The notes under the pieces were generated by a model. The model did not search any database. It was not told the DNA's origin and saw nothing but the letters and a program-made list of their open reading frames with translations. Shown piece after piece: positions 54,640-60,281 of a stretch of 64,000 nt of DNA. The DNA is taken from contig SVMD01000004.1 of assembly GCA_015067615.1 (NCBI GenBank), positions 93,908-157,907 on the forward strand, in the 5' to 3' direction. A program made the translations under genes and the position numbers. Origin of the DNA: Oscillospiraceae bacterium. GTDB taxonomy: Bacteria; Bacillota; Clostridia; Oscillospirales; Oscillospiraceae. The first letter of the stretch is position 1; each line of letters starts with the position of its first letter.

Positions 54640-55691
54640 AGCTGAAAATTGAAAATCTCACCGCCGGGTATGACACCGGCGTTGTGCTGGAAAATCTCTC
54701 ATTGAGCCTTGCGGCCGGGGAATTTCTCTCCTTGTTGGGTCCCTCCGGCTGCGGCAAGTCCACACTGATGAAAACCATCGCCGGAATCCTCCCGGCCCAG
54801 TCCGGCCGGATCACGCTGGATGGGGTGGATATCACCCACCTACCCATCCATAAGCGGGGCACCGTTGTGGTTTTTCAGGATATGCGGCTGTTTCCCCATC
54901 TGAGTGTGGCGGAAAATGTGGCCTTTCCCCTGAAAATGCAGGGCGTTCCCAAAACCGAACGGCTGCGGCAGGCGCAGGCGCTTCTGGAAAAGGTGCAGAT
55001 GTCCGGTTACGGCAGCCGCAAGCCCGCCGCCCTCTCCGGCGGACAGCAGCAACGGATCGCCCTGGCCCGGGCCCTGGCGGCCCAGCCGAAGCTGCTTCTG
55101 CTGGACGAACCCTTCTCGGCCCTGGATGAAAACCTCCGGGAAGATATGCGCAATCTGGTTCTGTCGCTGCAACAGGAGTTTGACATGACCGTGATTCTGG
55201 TGACCCACGACCGGGAGGAGGCCCTGAGCATGTCCCACCGGGTGGCCATGATGTTCGGCGGCCGCATCGTTCAGACCGATACGCCCCGGCAGGTTTACGG
55301 TGCCCCCGCCACCCGGCAGGTGGCCGATTACTTCGGCGGCTGCGTCTACCTTTCCGGGCAGGTCAGACAGGGCATTTTCTCAGCCTCTGGCATCTCCTGC
55401 GCCGCACAGGTTCCGGATGGGGACTACGACCTTATGCTGCGGCCTGAAGCCCTGGACACGGACTGCCCCGGGAACTACCGGCTGACCGTGGAAAGCGTCA
55501 GCTTCCGGGGCACCGATACCCTGGTGACCTTCCGGGCCCAGGACGGAACCCTCTGGAAAAAGCCGTATCCTGCCTGTATCACCCTCCAGCCGGGCGATGC
55601 GGTTCAGGCCGGAGTGTACCTTGCTGATCCGGTTCTGTTTGCGCAGACAAATTCCACGGAATCACCGCTCGACTATTCGGCGACTTTATGA
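54636..55691 (+). CDS. ABC transporter ATP-binding protein (YnjD/PotA-like) with C-terminal TOBE-like domain
   Basis: LLGPSGCGKSTLMKTIAG, ALSGGQQQRIALARALAAQPKLLLLDEPFSALD, VTHDREEALSMS. Confidence 0.88.
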   Translation: MKLKIENLTAGYDTGVVLENLSLSLAAGEFLSLLGPSGCGKSTLMKTIAGILPAQSGRITLDGVDITHLPIHKRGTVVVFQDMRLFPHLSVAENVAFPLKMQGVPKTERLRQAQALLEKVQMSGYGSRKPAALSGGQQQRIALARALAAQPKLLLLDEPFSALDENLREDMRNLVLSLQQEFDMTVILVTHDREEALSMSHRVAMMFGGRIVQTDTPRQVYGAPATRQVADYFGGCVYLSGQVRQGIFSASGISCAAQVPDGDYDLMLRPEALDTDCPGNYRLTVESVSFRGTDTLVTFRAQDGTLWKKPYPACITLQPGDAVQAGVYLADPVLFAQTNSTESPLDYSATL

Positions 55692-55726
55692 TATAATACG
55701 GAATATCTTTCGTTGGAGGCAAAGTC

Positions 55727-58261
55727 ATGGGCACACAGCCGAACAAACAGAATATCAGCATCGGTCTGCTGGCTCATGTGGACGCGGGCAAGACTACCCT
55801 TTCGGAGGCGCTGCTGTATGTCAGCGGCACCCGGCGCACTTACGGCCGGGTGGACCACAAGGACGCGTTCCTGGACACCCACGCCCTGGAGCGCAGCCGG
55901 GGCATCACCATTTTCTCCAAGCAGGCCCTGCTGGAAACGGAAACCAGAGCGGTGACTCTGGTGGACACCCCGGGCCACGTGGATTTTTCCACCGAGGCGG
56001 AGCGGATCATGCCCATTCTGGACTGCGCCGTGCTGGTGATTTCCGGCACCGACGGCGTCCAGGCCCACACGGTGACGCTGTGGAAGCTTCTGGAGCGCTA
56101 CAGTGTGCCCACCTTCCTGTTTATTAACAAAATGGATCTGCCAGGCACGGAAAAGGACAAGCTCCTGGCTGATTTGCAGAGTCAGCTGTCAAGCGGCTGC
56201 ATCGATTTCGGCGGCGACAGCGATGAAATTCAGGAAGCCTGCGCCATGTGCGACGAGGCCCTGCTGGAAAGCTATCTGGAAACCGGCGAAGTGACGGTCG
56301 GTAACATCCGTGGGCTGATTCGCGGCCGGAAAGTCTTCCCCTGCTGCTTCGGCTCGGCCCTGAAAATTCAGGGTGTGGAGGAACTGCTGACCACACTGGA
56401 CACCTACGCTCCCGAGCGCGAATATCCGGCGGATTTTGCCGCCCGGGTCTACAAGATCACCCGGGACCTCCAGGGGAACCGGCTCACCTGGCTGAAGGTC
56501 ACCGGCGGCAGCCTGAAAGTCCGTTCTGTAATAAGTTATGTAAACCAAAAAGGCGAGCAGCTGGAGGAAAAGGCCGTTCAGCTGCGGCTGTACTCCGCAG
56601 AAAAATTCACTCCTGCTGAGGAAGTATTCGCCGGAGGGCTCTGCGCCGTCACCGGCCTTTCCGCCACCTTTGCCGGTCAGGCTTTGGGCGCCGAGACCGA
56701 GGGTCTGCCCTGTGCTCTGGAGCCCGTCATGACCTACCGGGTGAATCCGCCCAAGGGTGCGGACCCGGCAGTAGTCCTGCCCAAGCTGCGGCAATTGGAG
56801 GAGGAGGACCCCCAGCTGCACCTGATCAGCCGGGGCAGCCAGATCCATGTGCAGATCATGGGCAAGGTCCAGATGGAGGTGTTCCGCAGTCTGGTTCAGG
56901 AGCGCTTCGGCCTGGAGATCACGCTGGACGACGAAAGGATTTTCTACAAGGAGACCATCGCCAATACCGTGGAGGGCGTGGGCCATTTCGAGCCCCTGCG
57001 GCACTATGCCGAGGTCCATGTGCTGCTGGAGCCCCTGGAACGGGGCAGCGGCATTGTCACGGACACCGTCTGTTCTCCCGACGTGCTGGATATGGTGTAT
57101 CAGAAGCTGATCCTTTCCCACATGGAGGAGAAGATCCACCGGGGTGTTCTCACGGGAGCCCCCATCACCGATATCAAGATCACCCTGCTGGTGGGCAAGG
57201 CCCACTTAAAACACACGGAAGGCGGCGACATGCGACAGGCCACCTACCGGGCCATCCGTCAGGGTCTGATGCAGGCAAAATCCGTGCTGCTGGAGCCCTG
57301 GTACGACTTCCAGCTGACCATGCCCACCGAGTATATCGGCCGGGCCATTACGGATATCCGCACTATGGGCGGCGAATTTGACGCCCCGGAGGCCATCGGC
57401 ACCAACTCAACGCTGAAAGGCCTTGTCCCGGCCTCTGAGCTGCGGGACTACGCCGACACGGTGGCCGCCTATACCCAGGGCCGGGGCCGCCTGCAGCTGA
57501 CGCTCCACGGGTATCTGCCCTGCCACAACCAGGAGGAAGTGGTTGCGGCGCTGGGCTACGACCCGGAGGCGGATCTGGAAAACACCCCCGACTCCGTATT
57601 CTGCGCCCACGGCGCGGGCTTCACTGTCAAGTGGCACCAGGTGAAGGACTACATGCACCTGGAGAGCGGTCTGAAGGAAAAGAAGGCCCCGGAGATCATC
57701 ACCCGGAACTATCAGGCAGAGGACAAAACGTTGGAGCAGATCATGCTCCGGGAGTTCGGACCCCAGACCACCACCCTCTACCGCTCTCCCGCCAACCGCC
57801 CCGCCACGGAAAAGCTCACCATCAAGCCCCTGAAGCCCAAATATATTATTGTAGACGGCTACAATATTATATTCAGCTGGGACGAGCTCCGGGCTCTGGC
57901 CCAGGGAGATATCGATGCCGCCCGCCGGCGGCTCTGCGACATCCTCAGCTCCTACGCAGGCTTCACCAAGGTCAAATTGGTGGTGGTCTTTGACGGCTAC
58001 AAGCGGGCGGGTAATCCCGGTGAAAAGAGCCAGTTCCACAACATCCAGGTGGTCTACACCAAGGAGGGCGAGACCGGCGACGCCTACATCGAAGCCCTGG
58101 TCCACGACATCGGCGGCAACTACGCTGTCCGGGTGGCCACCTCCGACAATCTGGTGCAGCTAAGCTCCTTCCGCAGCGGCGTTCTGCGGATGTCCGCCAG
58201 GGAGCTGGAACTGGAAGTGGAGGCCGCCAGAAAAGAAATGGGCGAGCATTTTAAGAAATAA
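55727..58261 (+). CDS. TetM/EF-G-like translational GTPase fused to a C-terminal YacP/Rae1-type NYN ribonuclease domain
   Basis: G1 AHVDAGKTT, G2 RGIT, G3 DTPGHVDF, G4 NKMD; domain IV/V with LTLHGYLPCHNQEEV; from about 57826 KYIIVDGYNIIFSWDELRALAQGDIDAARRRLCDILSSYAGFTKVKLVVVFDGYKRAG…YTKEGETGDAYIEALVHDIG…VRVATSDNLVQLSSFRSGVLRMSARELELEVE matches the YacP-type NYN pattern. Confidence 0.9.
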   Translation: MGTQPNKQNISIGLLAHVDAGKTTLSEALLYVSGTRRTYGRVDHKDAFLDTHALERSRGITIFSKQALLETETRAVTLVDTPGHVDFSTEAERIMPILDCAVLVISGTDGVQAHTVTLWKLLERYSVPTFLFINKMDLPGTEKDKLLADLQSQLSSGCIDFGGDSDEIQEACAMCDEALLESYLETGEVTVGNIRGLIRGRKVFPCCFGSALKIQGVEELLTTLDTYAPEREYPADFAARVYKITRDLQGNRLTWLKVTGGSLKVRSVISYVNQKGEQLEEKAVQLRLYSAEKFTPAEEVFAGGLCAVTGLSATFAGQALGAETEGLPCALEPVMTYRVNPPKGADPAVVLPKLRQLEEEDPQLHLISRGSQIHVQIMGKVQMEVFRSLVQERFGLEITLDDERIFYKETIANTVEGVGHFEPLRHYAEVHVLLEPLERGSGIVTDTVCSPDVLDMVYQKLILSHMEEKIHRGVLTGAPITDIKITLLVGKAHLKHTEGGDMRQATYRAIRQGLMQAKSVLLEPWYDFQLTMPTEYIGRAITDIRTMGGEFDAPEAIGTNSTLKGLVPASELRDYADTVAAYTQGRGRLQLTLHGYLPCHNQEEVVAALGYDPEADLENTPDSVFCAHGAGFTVKWHQVKDYMHLESGLKEKKAPEIITRNYQAEDKTLEQIMLREFGPQTTTLYRSPANRPATEKLTIKPLKPKYIIVDGYNIIFSWDELRALAQGDIDAARRRLCDILSSYAGFTKVKLVVVFDGYKRAGNPGEKSQFHNIQVVYTKEGETGDAYIEALVHDIGGNYAVRVATSDNLVQLSSFRSGVLRMSARELELEVEAARKEMGEHFKK

Positions 58262-58264
58262 CAA

Positions 58265-58297
58265 AGCAGCGGCAGGGAGATTCCCTGCCGCATTATT
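58265..58297 (+). terminator. Terminator of the GTPase-NYN gene
   Basis: GCGGCAGGGA-gat-TCCCTGCCGC followed by ATTATTTT. Confidence 0.7.
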
Positions 58298-58348: not shown

Positions 58349-59890
58349 TTACTTTGCGTATTCCACAGCCTTGGTCTCGCGGATAACATTGACCTTGATC
58401 TGGCCGGGGTATTCCAGCTCGGCTTCGATCTTCTTGGCAATGTCCCGGGCCAGGATGATCATGTTGTCCTCGGTGACCACCTCGGGCTTGACCATGATGC
58501 GGACCTCGCGGCCTGCCTGGATGGCGAAGGCCTTGTCCACGCCGGGATAGGAGCCGGTGAGCTCCTCCAGCTTCTGCAGGCGGCGGATATAATTCTCCAC
58601 GTTCTCGCGGCGGGCGCCGGGACGGGCAGCGGAGATGGCATCGGCGGCCTGGACCAGCACGGCGATGACGGTCTTGGGCTCCACGTCGCCGTGGTGAGCC
58701 TCGATGGCATTGACGATGACGGGATTCTCCTTGTACTTCCGGGCCAGATCCGCGCCCAGCTGCACATGGGAGCCTTCCACCTCGTGGTCGATGGCCTTGC
58801 CCAGGTCATGCAGCAGACCTGCACGCTTGGCCAGAGCCACATCCACGCCCAGCTCGGAGGCCATGAGGCCGGCGATGTGGGAAACCTCGATGGAGTGGTT
58901 CAGCACGTTCTGACCGTAGGAGGTACGGTACTTCTGACGGCCCAGGATCTTGATCAGCTCGGGGTTCAGGTTGTGAACGCCGGTCTCGTAGCAGGCCCGC
59001 TCGCCTTCCTCCCGGATGGTGCGGTCCACTTCCTTCTTGGCCTTCTCCACCATGTCCTCGATGCGGGTGGGATGGATACGGCCGTCGGTGATGAGCTTTT
59101 CCAGTGCCAGTCTTGCGATCTCCCGGCGGACGGGGTCGAAGGAGGACACGGTAATGGCTTCGGGGGTATCGTCGATGATCAGGTCGACGCCGGTGATGGT
59201 CTCCAGGGTCCGGATATTCCGGCCCTCACGGCCGATGATGCGGCCCTTCATCTCGTCGTTGGGCAGAGCCACAACGGAGACGGTGACTTCCGCGGCGTGG
59301 TCGGCAGCGCAGCGCTGGATGGCGGTGGAGATGACCTCCCGGGCCTTGTCCTCGGCCTCGTCCTTCAGCTGCTGCTCGATCTCCTTGATCTTCATGGCGG
59401 CCTCGTGGCGGACCTCATCCTCCACGGACTTCAGAAGATACGTCTTTGCCTGGTCCTGGGTCAGCTCGGAGATCTCCTCCAGCTTCTTCAGCTGGGCGTT
59501 CTTCAGCTCGTCGGCGGCGGCCTGGGTCTCAGAGACCTTGGCCAGGCGCTTGTTCAGCTCCTCTTCCTTCCGCTCGAAGGCTTCGGTTTTGCGGTCCAGG
59601 GTGGTTTCCTTCTGCTCTAAGCGGCGCTCCTGCTTAGACAGCTCAGCGCGGCGCTCTTTGACTTCCTTGTCGTGTTCTGTGCGTGATCTATGGATTTCAT
59701 CCTTGGCTTCCAGGAGCATTTCCTTCTTCCGGTTCTCACCGCTGCGGATGGCCTCGTTAATCAGGCGGGTAGCCTCCATCTCGGCAGAGCCGATCTCCTT
59801 TTCCGCCACCTTCTTGCGGTACATCATGCCCACGAAGAAACCAATGGCAAGTCCTACCAAAATTCCAACAATGGCATAAACAAATTCCAT
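58349..59890 (-). CDS. rny: Ribonuclease Y
   Basis: N-terminal TM and coiled coil, KH domain ([47 protein letters not shown]), HD domain ([33 protein letters not shown]), C-terminal [46 protein letters not shown]; start at 59890. Confidence 0.97.
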
Positions 59891-60281
59891 AAAAAAACAG
59901 CACACCTCCTTCTTGAAAAATAGGGGCGCAGAAGGGGGTGTGGGCATAGTAAACCTATGTGATTTTGTGCATAACGACCAGCCGGAAACCCGGCTTTTTC
60001 CACGAAAACACCGCCAAAAGCATACTTTTGGCGTCCATGAATCTATCGGTTAAGCAAAATAAACGCCACATTCAGGCGTATAAAACCCATTCCCCCGGCC
60101 TTGCGCCGGTTATCATGAAACGCTGCGCTCCGGAAATGTCCCCGGCCAGCGTACACCATACCGCATATATTTTACTCACACTATCCGGGAATGTCAAGTA
60201 CAAATGCACAAATTTTACGTTTCTGAACCCGCAATTTCGTTCATCAGAACAAAATCCGCAAAAACCTCCCCTCTCCCTCCG

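Follow-up and report, generated by a model that had tools for sequence, protein, structure and literature searches.

The closest described relatives of the gene analysed here are a nuclease, a group of translational GTPases and an earlier report of the two joined. Rae1 is an endoribonuclease of the ribosomal A site (PMC6613710; PMC10100781), and its substrate is translated mRNA (PMC10100781). A loss-of-function suppressor recovered in B. subtilis carries the substitution R166P in this enzyme (PMC6613710). Atkinson (2015, PMC4342817) reported that the Tet proteins of ten Clostridiales have gained an NYN RNase domain resembling YacP, and proposed a connection with antibiotic resistance. The GTPase-NYN architecture is therefore known since 2015, as a sequence-only reading of the present DNA had thought possible. 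In the literature searched, no experiment or biochemistry on the fusion was found, and the main Rae1 papers may still mention it. The NCBI name of the relative in Monoglobus is 'translation factor GTPase family protein'.

The fusion gene and its surroundings

The window, i.e. the whole analysed stretch of 64,000 nucleotides from an Oscillospiraceae bacterium, carries one gene in which an EF-G-like GTPase, a C-terminal extension (CTE), a linker and a Rae1/YacP NYN domain follow each other (Table 1). The single uninterrupted 844-codon frame claimed by the sequence-only reading was borne out by the open reading frame, which has no internal stop, by its Pfam domains and by relatives with the same domain order. 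A frame artefact was ruled out, as 62 relatives from separate genomes and the Monoglobus record have this order in a single open frame. The nearest named genomes for the protein belong to Faecousia (74% over the C-terminal part), and several further proteins of the source genome contain PF00009.

Table 1. Position of the fusion gene, its predicted signals and the parts of its product in the window
Feature	Position	Strand	Basis
CDS of the GTPase-CTE-linker-NYN fusion, 844 aa plus stop	55727..58261	+	ORF read, Pfam, AlphaFold
Predicted sigma-70 promoter, TCGACT-17-TATAAT, TG ahead of the -10 box	55669..55697	+	promoter prediction; similar promoter in many genus relatives
Shine-Dalgarno, GGAGG	55715..55719	+	seen directly in the sequence
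Predicted intrinsic terminator, 10-bp stem, common to the fusion gene and the convergent RNase Y gene	58269..58291	+
G domain, residues 8-230, AHVDAGKTT, RGIT, DTPGH, NKMD	55748..56416	+	Pfam, motif alignment
Domain II, residues 236-322	56432..56692	+	Pfam, AlphaFold
Domain III, residues 330-402	56714..56932	+	Pfam, AlphaFold
Domain IV, residues 403-520	56933..57286	+	Pfam, identity comparison
Domain IV loop III region, residues 488-503, KHTEGGDFR-type conserved motif replacing TetM YYSPVST	57188..57235	+	alignment
Domain V, residues 521-602	57287..57532	+	Pfam, AlphaFold
CTE, residues 603-646, helix-hairpin-helix, SVFCxHGxGFxVxW...MH motif	57533..57664	+	alignment, AlphaFold
Linker, residues 647-704, mostly disordered	57665..57838	+	AlphaFold, alignment
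Short linker helix, residues 666-677, motif DKxLExIMxREFG	57722..57757	+	AlphaFold, motif pattern
Rae1/YacP NYN nuclease domain, residues 705-843, without C-terminal RRG tail	57839..58255	+	Pfam, Rae1 alignment
Catalytic Asp D710, aligned with Rae1 D7	57854..57856	+	Rae1 alignment
Catalytic Asp D756	57992..57994	+	Rae1 alignment
Catalytic Asp D785	58079..58081	+	Rae1 alignment
Catalytic Asp D807	58145..58147	+	Rae1 alignment

The Pfam analysis gave 170.1 bits for GTP_EFTU (residues 8-229), 61.7 for EFG_IV and 66.3 for EFG_C, with EFG_III and EF-G_D2 slightly under their cut-offs. About 100 residues after the EF-G domains, NYN_YacP (residues 707-843) reached 144.6 bits (cut-off 24.6), which confirmed the proposed YacP/Rae1 identity of this domain. 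The AlphaFold model, built from 68 sequences, had a mean pLDDT of 86.9. It was confident for the GTPase, the CTE and the NYN domain, lower for the linker helix, and low only at residues 1-3, 652-664 and 681-699. With a pTM of 0.66 and a linker pLDDT below 50, the model does not reliably show how the NYN domain is placed against the GTPase. A Foldseek search with the model matched EF-G structures (E 7e-54). The linker motif was detected in 60 of the 64 fused proteins by pattern and in 62 by eye; variants of the ELxxIFERTYGPxKR or LEEIxxIINxTYYxNQGKK types were seen among the fused proteins.

Based on the predicted promoter, the GGAGG site and the predicted terminator, the fusion gene is predicted to form its own transcription unit. 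An ABC transporter gene on the same strand ends 35 nt 5' of it. On the other side lies an RNase Y gene (58349-59947, minus strand), convergent with the fusion gene, and the predicted terminator is bidirectional and common to both. RNase Y was considered as a kept partner and rejected, because it is not among the conserved neighbours in relatives; the adjacency is taken as local. Clustering of the flanking ORFs of 115 loci revealed no gene kept beside the fusion except among close relatives, and the search for an RNA leader gave no Rfam match near the gene. In one genome assembled as a single contig (G514), a TAG stop interrupts the fusion gene between the G domain and the remainder (L065:3544-6264).

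The 5' end of the gene is duplicated in some relatives. Away from the full gene, short copies were found in which the promoter and some 22 codons are followed by GAGAACCACA and usually by a terminator (L226, 1500-1640; L227; L228; L232). A large serine recombinase gene is located 120-150 nt upstream of the full gene at L003, L008, L009 and L108 and is partial at L013; L237 is among the loci noted upstream of the fusion gene with a 5'-end duplication beside large serine recombinase genes or mobile-element ends. In genome G801, a 43-kb interval that contains a relaxase gene and cobalamin genes separates the short copy from the full gene. The same interval encodes a 1024-aa protein (L236:14532-17603) that weakly matches PF05183, eukaryotic-type RNA-dependent RNA polymerase (E 6e-10). 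Elements may thus insert near codon 22, in the P-loop region, and substitute their own promoter and 5' end, which would make this site an integration hotspot in several genus relatives. The copy in the window looks uninterrupted, since the ABC transporter gene lies upstream and no recombinase match was found there.

In genus relatives (e.g., L008, L020 and L034), the -10 box ahead of the fusion gene is surrounded by an inverted repeat of 12-15 bp. Its arms vary by species yet remain complementary, scoring 9-12 where the 95th percentile of shuffled sequence is 6. This palindrome was rejected as a regulated promoter of the fusion gene, because it belongs to the repeated 5' segment tied to integrated elements. 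The window copy has no clear palindrome at the -10 box.

The GTPase half

The window protein falls within the EF-G/Tet superfamily, having GTP_EFTU with its G motifs followed by EF-G domains II-V. The G motifs are intact, as had been read from the sequence, and their residues are invariant or nearly so in the alignment of 68 proteins. TetM and TetO, the nearest well-studied factors, are 28-30% identical to the GTPase. This likeness, together with the published classification as Tet (PMC4342817), speaks for an antibiotic ribosome-protection protein, whose domain IV would expel tetracycline or another A-site drug and whose nuclease would clear mRNA of ribosomes that are still blocked.

Several results argue against this explanation. 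With the curated model of tetracycline protection proteins, NF012153, the window protein scored 386.7 bits against a cut-off of 775, whereas the positive control, a true Tet-type protein of the same sampling (L224), scored 1000.8 bits. In the alignment, the TetM loop III and C-terminal helix sequences were not found in the window protein; TetM YYSPVST aligns gap-free with a different conserved loop of the KHTEGGDFR type, which reads KAHLKHTEGGD in the window protein and has K495 at TetM P509. In the GTPase tree, obtained by a quick method with SH-aLRT support only, all fused proteins group in a single clade (99), the unfused sisters are placed next to it (83), and both are apart from TetM, TetO and other Tet-type proteins (100). 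The leader from the predicted promoter to the ATG, of about 25 nt, is too short for a TetM-type leader peptide. Moreover, among the relatives from the same genus, the fused gene occurs in 12 of the 12 with a completeness of 90% or more, which is not the pattern of an acquired resistance gene; it is absent from eight less complete ones.

The TetM-like function proposed in the sequence-only reading is thus not supported by score, loop or clade, none of which gives an indication of drug removal. The objection to drug removal is weakened by the TetM triple mutant S508A/P509A/V510A, reported to be active (PMC4750697), i.e. TetM tolerates an altered loop III without functional loss. Taken together, we consider drug protection quite unlikely.

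Unfused sister GTPases, retrieved with an unfused relative as the query, have 645-671 residues and end directly after the CTE; loops I, II and III and the CTE motif are common to them and the fused proteins. No domain of the family is better conserved than domain IV. Its median pairwise identity is 72% within the fused group, where the G domain has 56%; for pairs of one fused and one unfused protein, the values are 59% for domain IV and 44% for the G domain. Domain IV of the fused proteins is only 27% identical to that of Tet proteins and 25% to that of EF-G. Thirty signature positions are common to fused and unfused proteins and absent in other factors, 16 of them in domain IV and eight in the CTE. 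Domain IV identity and the location of 24 of the 30 signature positions in domain IV or the CTE therefore indicate that the constraint is centred on parts which face the decoding centre in TetM and EF-G. Judging from the alignments and the tree, the GTPase is a distinct EF-G-like subfamily, neither EF-G nor TetM-type.

The nuclease half and the history of the fusion

The NYN domain of the window protein aligns with Rae1 (PDB 5mq8/5mq9) at E 6e-21, keeping D710, D756, D785 and D807. These four aspartates are invariant in the alignment of 64 fused and 25 free NYN domains, so the degenerate acidic residues that would have spoken against a nuclease were not encountered. The domain had been called complete: this stands for the catalytic core, but the NYN_YacP model is covered only at positions 1-139 of 166, and the last 27 or so are missing. 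The conserved tail of free Rae1 falls in this absent region. Its LEKxRRG-type motif was found in 17 of the 25 free Rae1 proteins and in none of the 64 fused domains, and by alignment R166 of B. subtilis Rae1 sits in this motif. Invariant aspartates, the loss of the motif and the inactivating effect of R166P suggest that the fused NYN domain has kept its catalytic residues and lost a functional tail. Weak NYN matches are also present in phage records.

Some EF-G-like GTPases act in ribosome assembly, which counts for a ribosome-assembly or rRNA/tRNA-processing factor, whose GTPase would dock on immature or idle ribosomes while the NYN domain trims stable RNA. Such a role of the NYN domain was proposed, as cited in PMC4342817, before Rae1 was characterised. 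However, Rae1, the nearest characterised nuclease, acts on translated mRNA (PMC10100781), and it is the domain IV tip and the CTE, both facing the decoding centre in TetM/EF-G, that are constrained most strongly. This is the least probable of the explanations that we weighed.

The fusion occurs in scores of genomes and in many families. In the NYN tree, the fused domains form one clade against 24 free ones (99/98), and the GTPase and NYN halves co-diverge (Mantel r 0.84, 0 of 2000 permutations). The monophyly of the fused proteins in both trees and the co-divergence of their halves fit one ancient fusion event whose product was passed on as a unit. The only relative from the plasmid collection is on a 518-kb Monoglobus replicon.

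Carriers of the fusion largely lack a free YacP. In the source genome, the profile search found a single YacP domain, that of the fusion, and no free Rae1. YacP is present in 132 of the 299 genomes sampled from the order, none of them clearly free; nearly all are in frames of more than 830 residues, and the others resemble fragments that are broken or sit at a contig edge (G164, G194, G320 and G330 were classed by position). The phylum sample contained 12 fused and about 97 free proteins and no genome with both. In the class sample, G600 is the only genome where fused and free Rae1 occur together; G448, G499 and G530 were rejected as further carriers of both, as their second YacP match was under the cut-off. 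Fused and free Rae1 thus appear almost to exclude each other. As the gene is missing in over half of the sampled genomes of the order, its role is dispensable.

The unfused GTPase was found in 15 genomes, eight with free Rae1 and seven without any YacP domain; the latter indicate that the GTPase has a role independent of the nuclease. The eight genomes that keep the two as separate genes, and the long, mostly disordered linker, would fit mere co-delivery, i.e. a GTPase with its own role and an NYN domain acting as an ordinary Rae1 free of GTPase control. We regard this as unlikely, since one fusion has been kept over many families with its halves co-diverging, and the loss of the Rae1 tail and the conserved linker motif suggest functional coupling.

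Proposed mechanism and comparison with known systems

On balance, we favour, with moderate confidence, a translational GTPase dedicated to stalled ribosomes, on which it cuts mRNA in a GTP-gated manner with the Rae1 endonuclease that forms its C-terminal domain. Its architecture, intact active sites, distinct subfamily, single-clade origin, exclusion of free Rae1, tail loss and domain IV-centred constraint are supported by the sequences and the model. Ribosome binding, GTP-gated cleavage, the order of the steps and the physiological trigger are put forward here conditionally, and the same holds for the nuclease in the A site under GTPase control envisaged in the sequence-only reading.

The GTPase would bind the factor site of ribosomes whose A site is open, and the conserved domain IV tip and the CTE would probe the decoding centre. 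GTP hydrolysis would withdraw domain IV, and the NYN domain, tethered by the flexible linker of about 60 residues, would then cleave the mRNA within the A site or close to it; alternatively, cleavage may take place just downstream, at the mRNA entry. The cut would permit rescue of the stalled ribosome and destroy the message. The GTPase would thereby assume the ribosome targeting that free Rae1 does itself, in place of the lost Rae1 tail. Domain IV, which fills the A site, and the Rae1 domain cannot share this site at once, so that the two have to be assumed to act one after the other. The cut would most likely come after GTP hydrolysis, once domain IV has been withdrawn, or else fall just downstream at the mRNA entry.

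A more specific reading, to which we give somewhat less than even credence, is that a GTPase subfamily unrelated to drug resistance uses decoding-centre loops of its own to sense stalled ribosomes, to which it brings an mRNA endonuclease that is part of the same protein. Gut Clostridia would thus have a GTP-gated, one-protein equivalent of no-go decay that arose once via the capture of Rae1.

The fusion bears on how bacteria pick stalled ribosomes for cutting and on how Rae1 reaches its targets. The natural swap of the Rae1 tail for a GTPase suggests that the targeting step is separable, and domain swaps become clear experiments. For resistance-gene surveys, it is relevant that some publications assign this family to tetracycline protection, although it probably represents a core translation factor of gut Clostridia.

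Compared with known systems, the fusion shares with Rae1/YacP of B. subtilis (PF05991) the same NYN domain, the four aspartates and the GYN motif; free Rae1, however, has about 170 residues with an RRG tail required for function, whereas the fused domain is tail-less and joined to a GTPase. TetM and TetO are likewise five-domain EF-G-like GTPases of similar length with a C-terminal extension, but their loop I, loop III and extension are unrelated to the conserved ones found here, they belong to another clade, the window protein reaches half of the curated cut-off for such proteins, and the fusion adds a nuclease. EF-G has the same fold and G motifs, with 25-28% identity and a different domain IV tip, and the fusion adds the CTE, the linker and the nuclease. 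The clostridial 'Tet'-NYN proteins of Atkinson (2015, PMC4342817) have, judged by their text description, the same domain order and come from the same bacterial group, so that the window protein is a further case of this architecture; there they are counted as tetracycline protection proteins of ten species, whereas here the GTPase belongs to a separate subfamily with unfused sisters and the fusion occurs in scores of genomes. New in the present analysis are the non-TetM GTPase clade with its own signature, the one fused clade in both trees, the near-exclusion of free Rae1 and the loss of the RRG tail. On the evidence of sequence comparison, this moves the description from a Tet protein with an extra RNase towards a distinct GTPase subfamily that captured Rae1 once.
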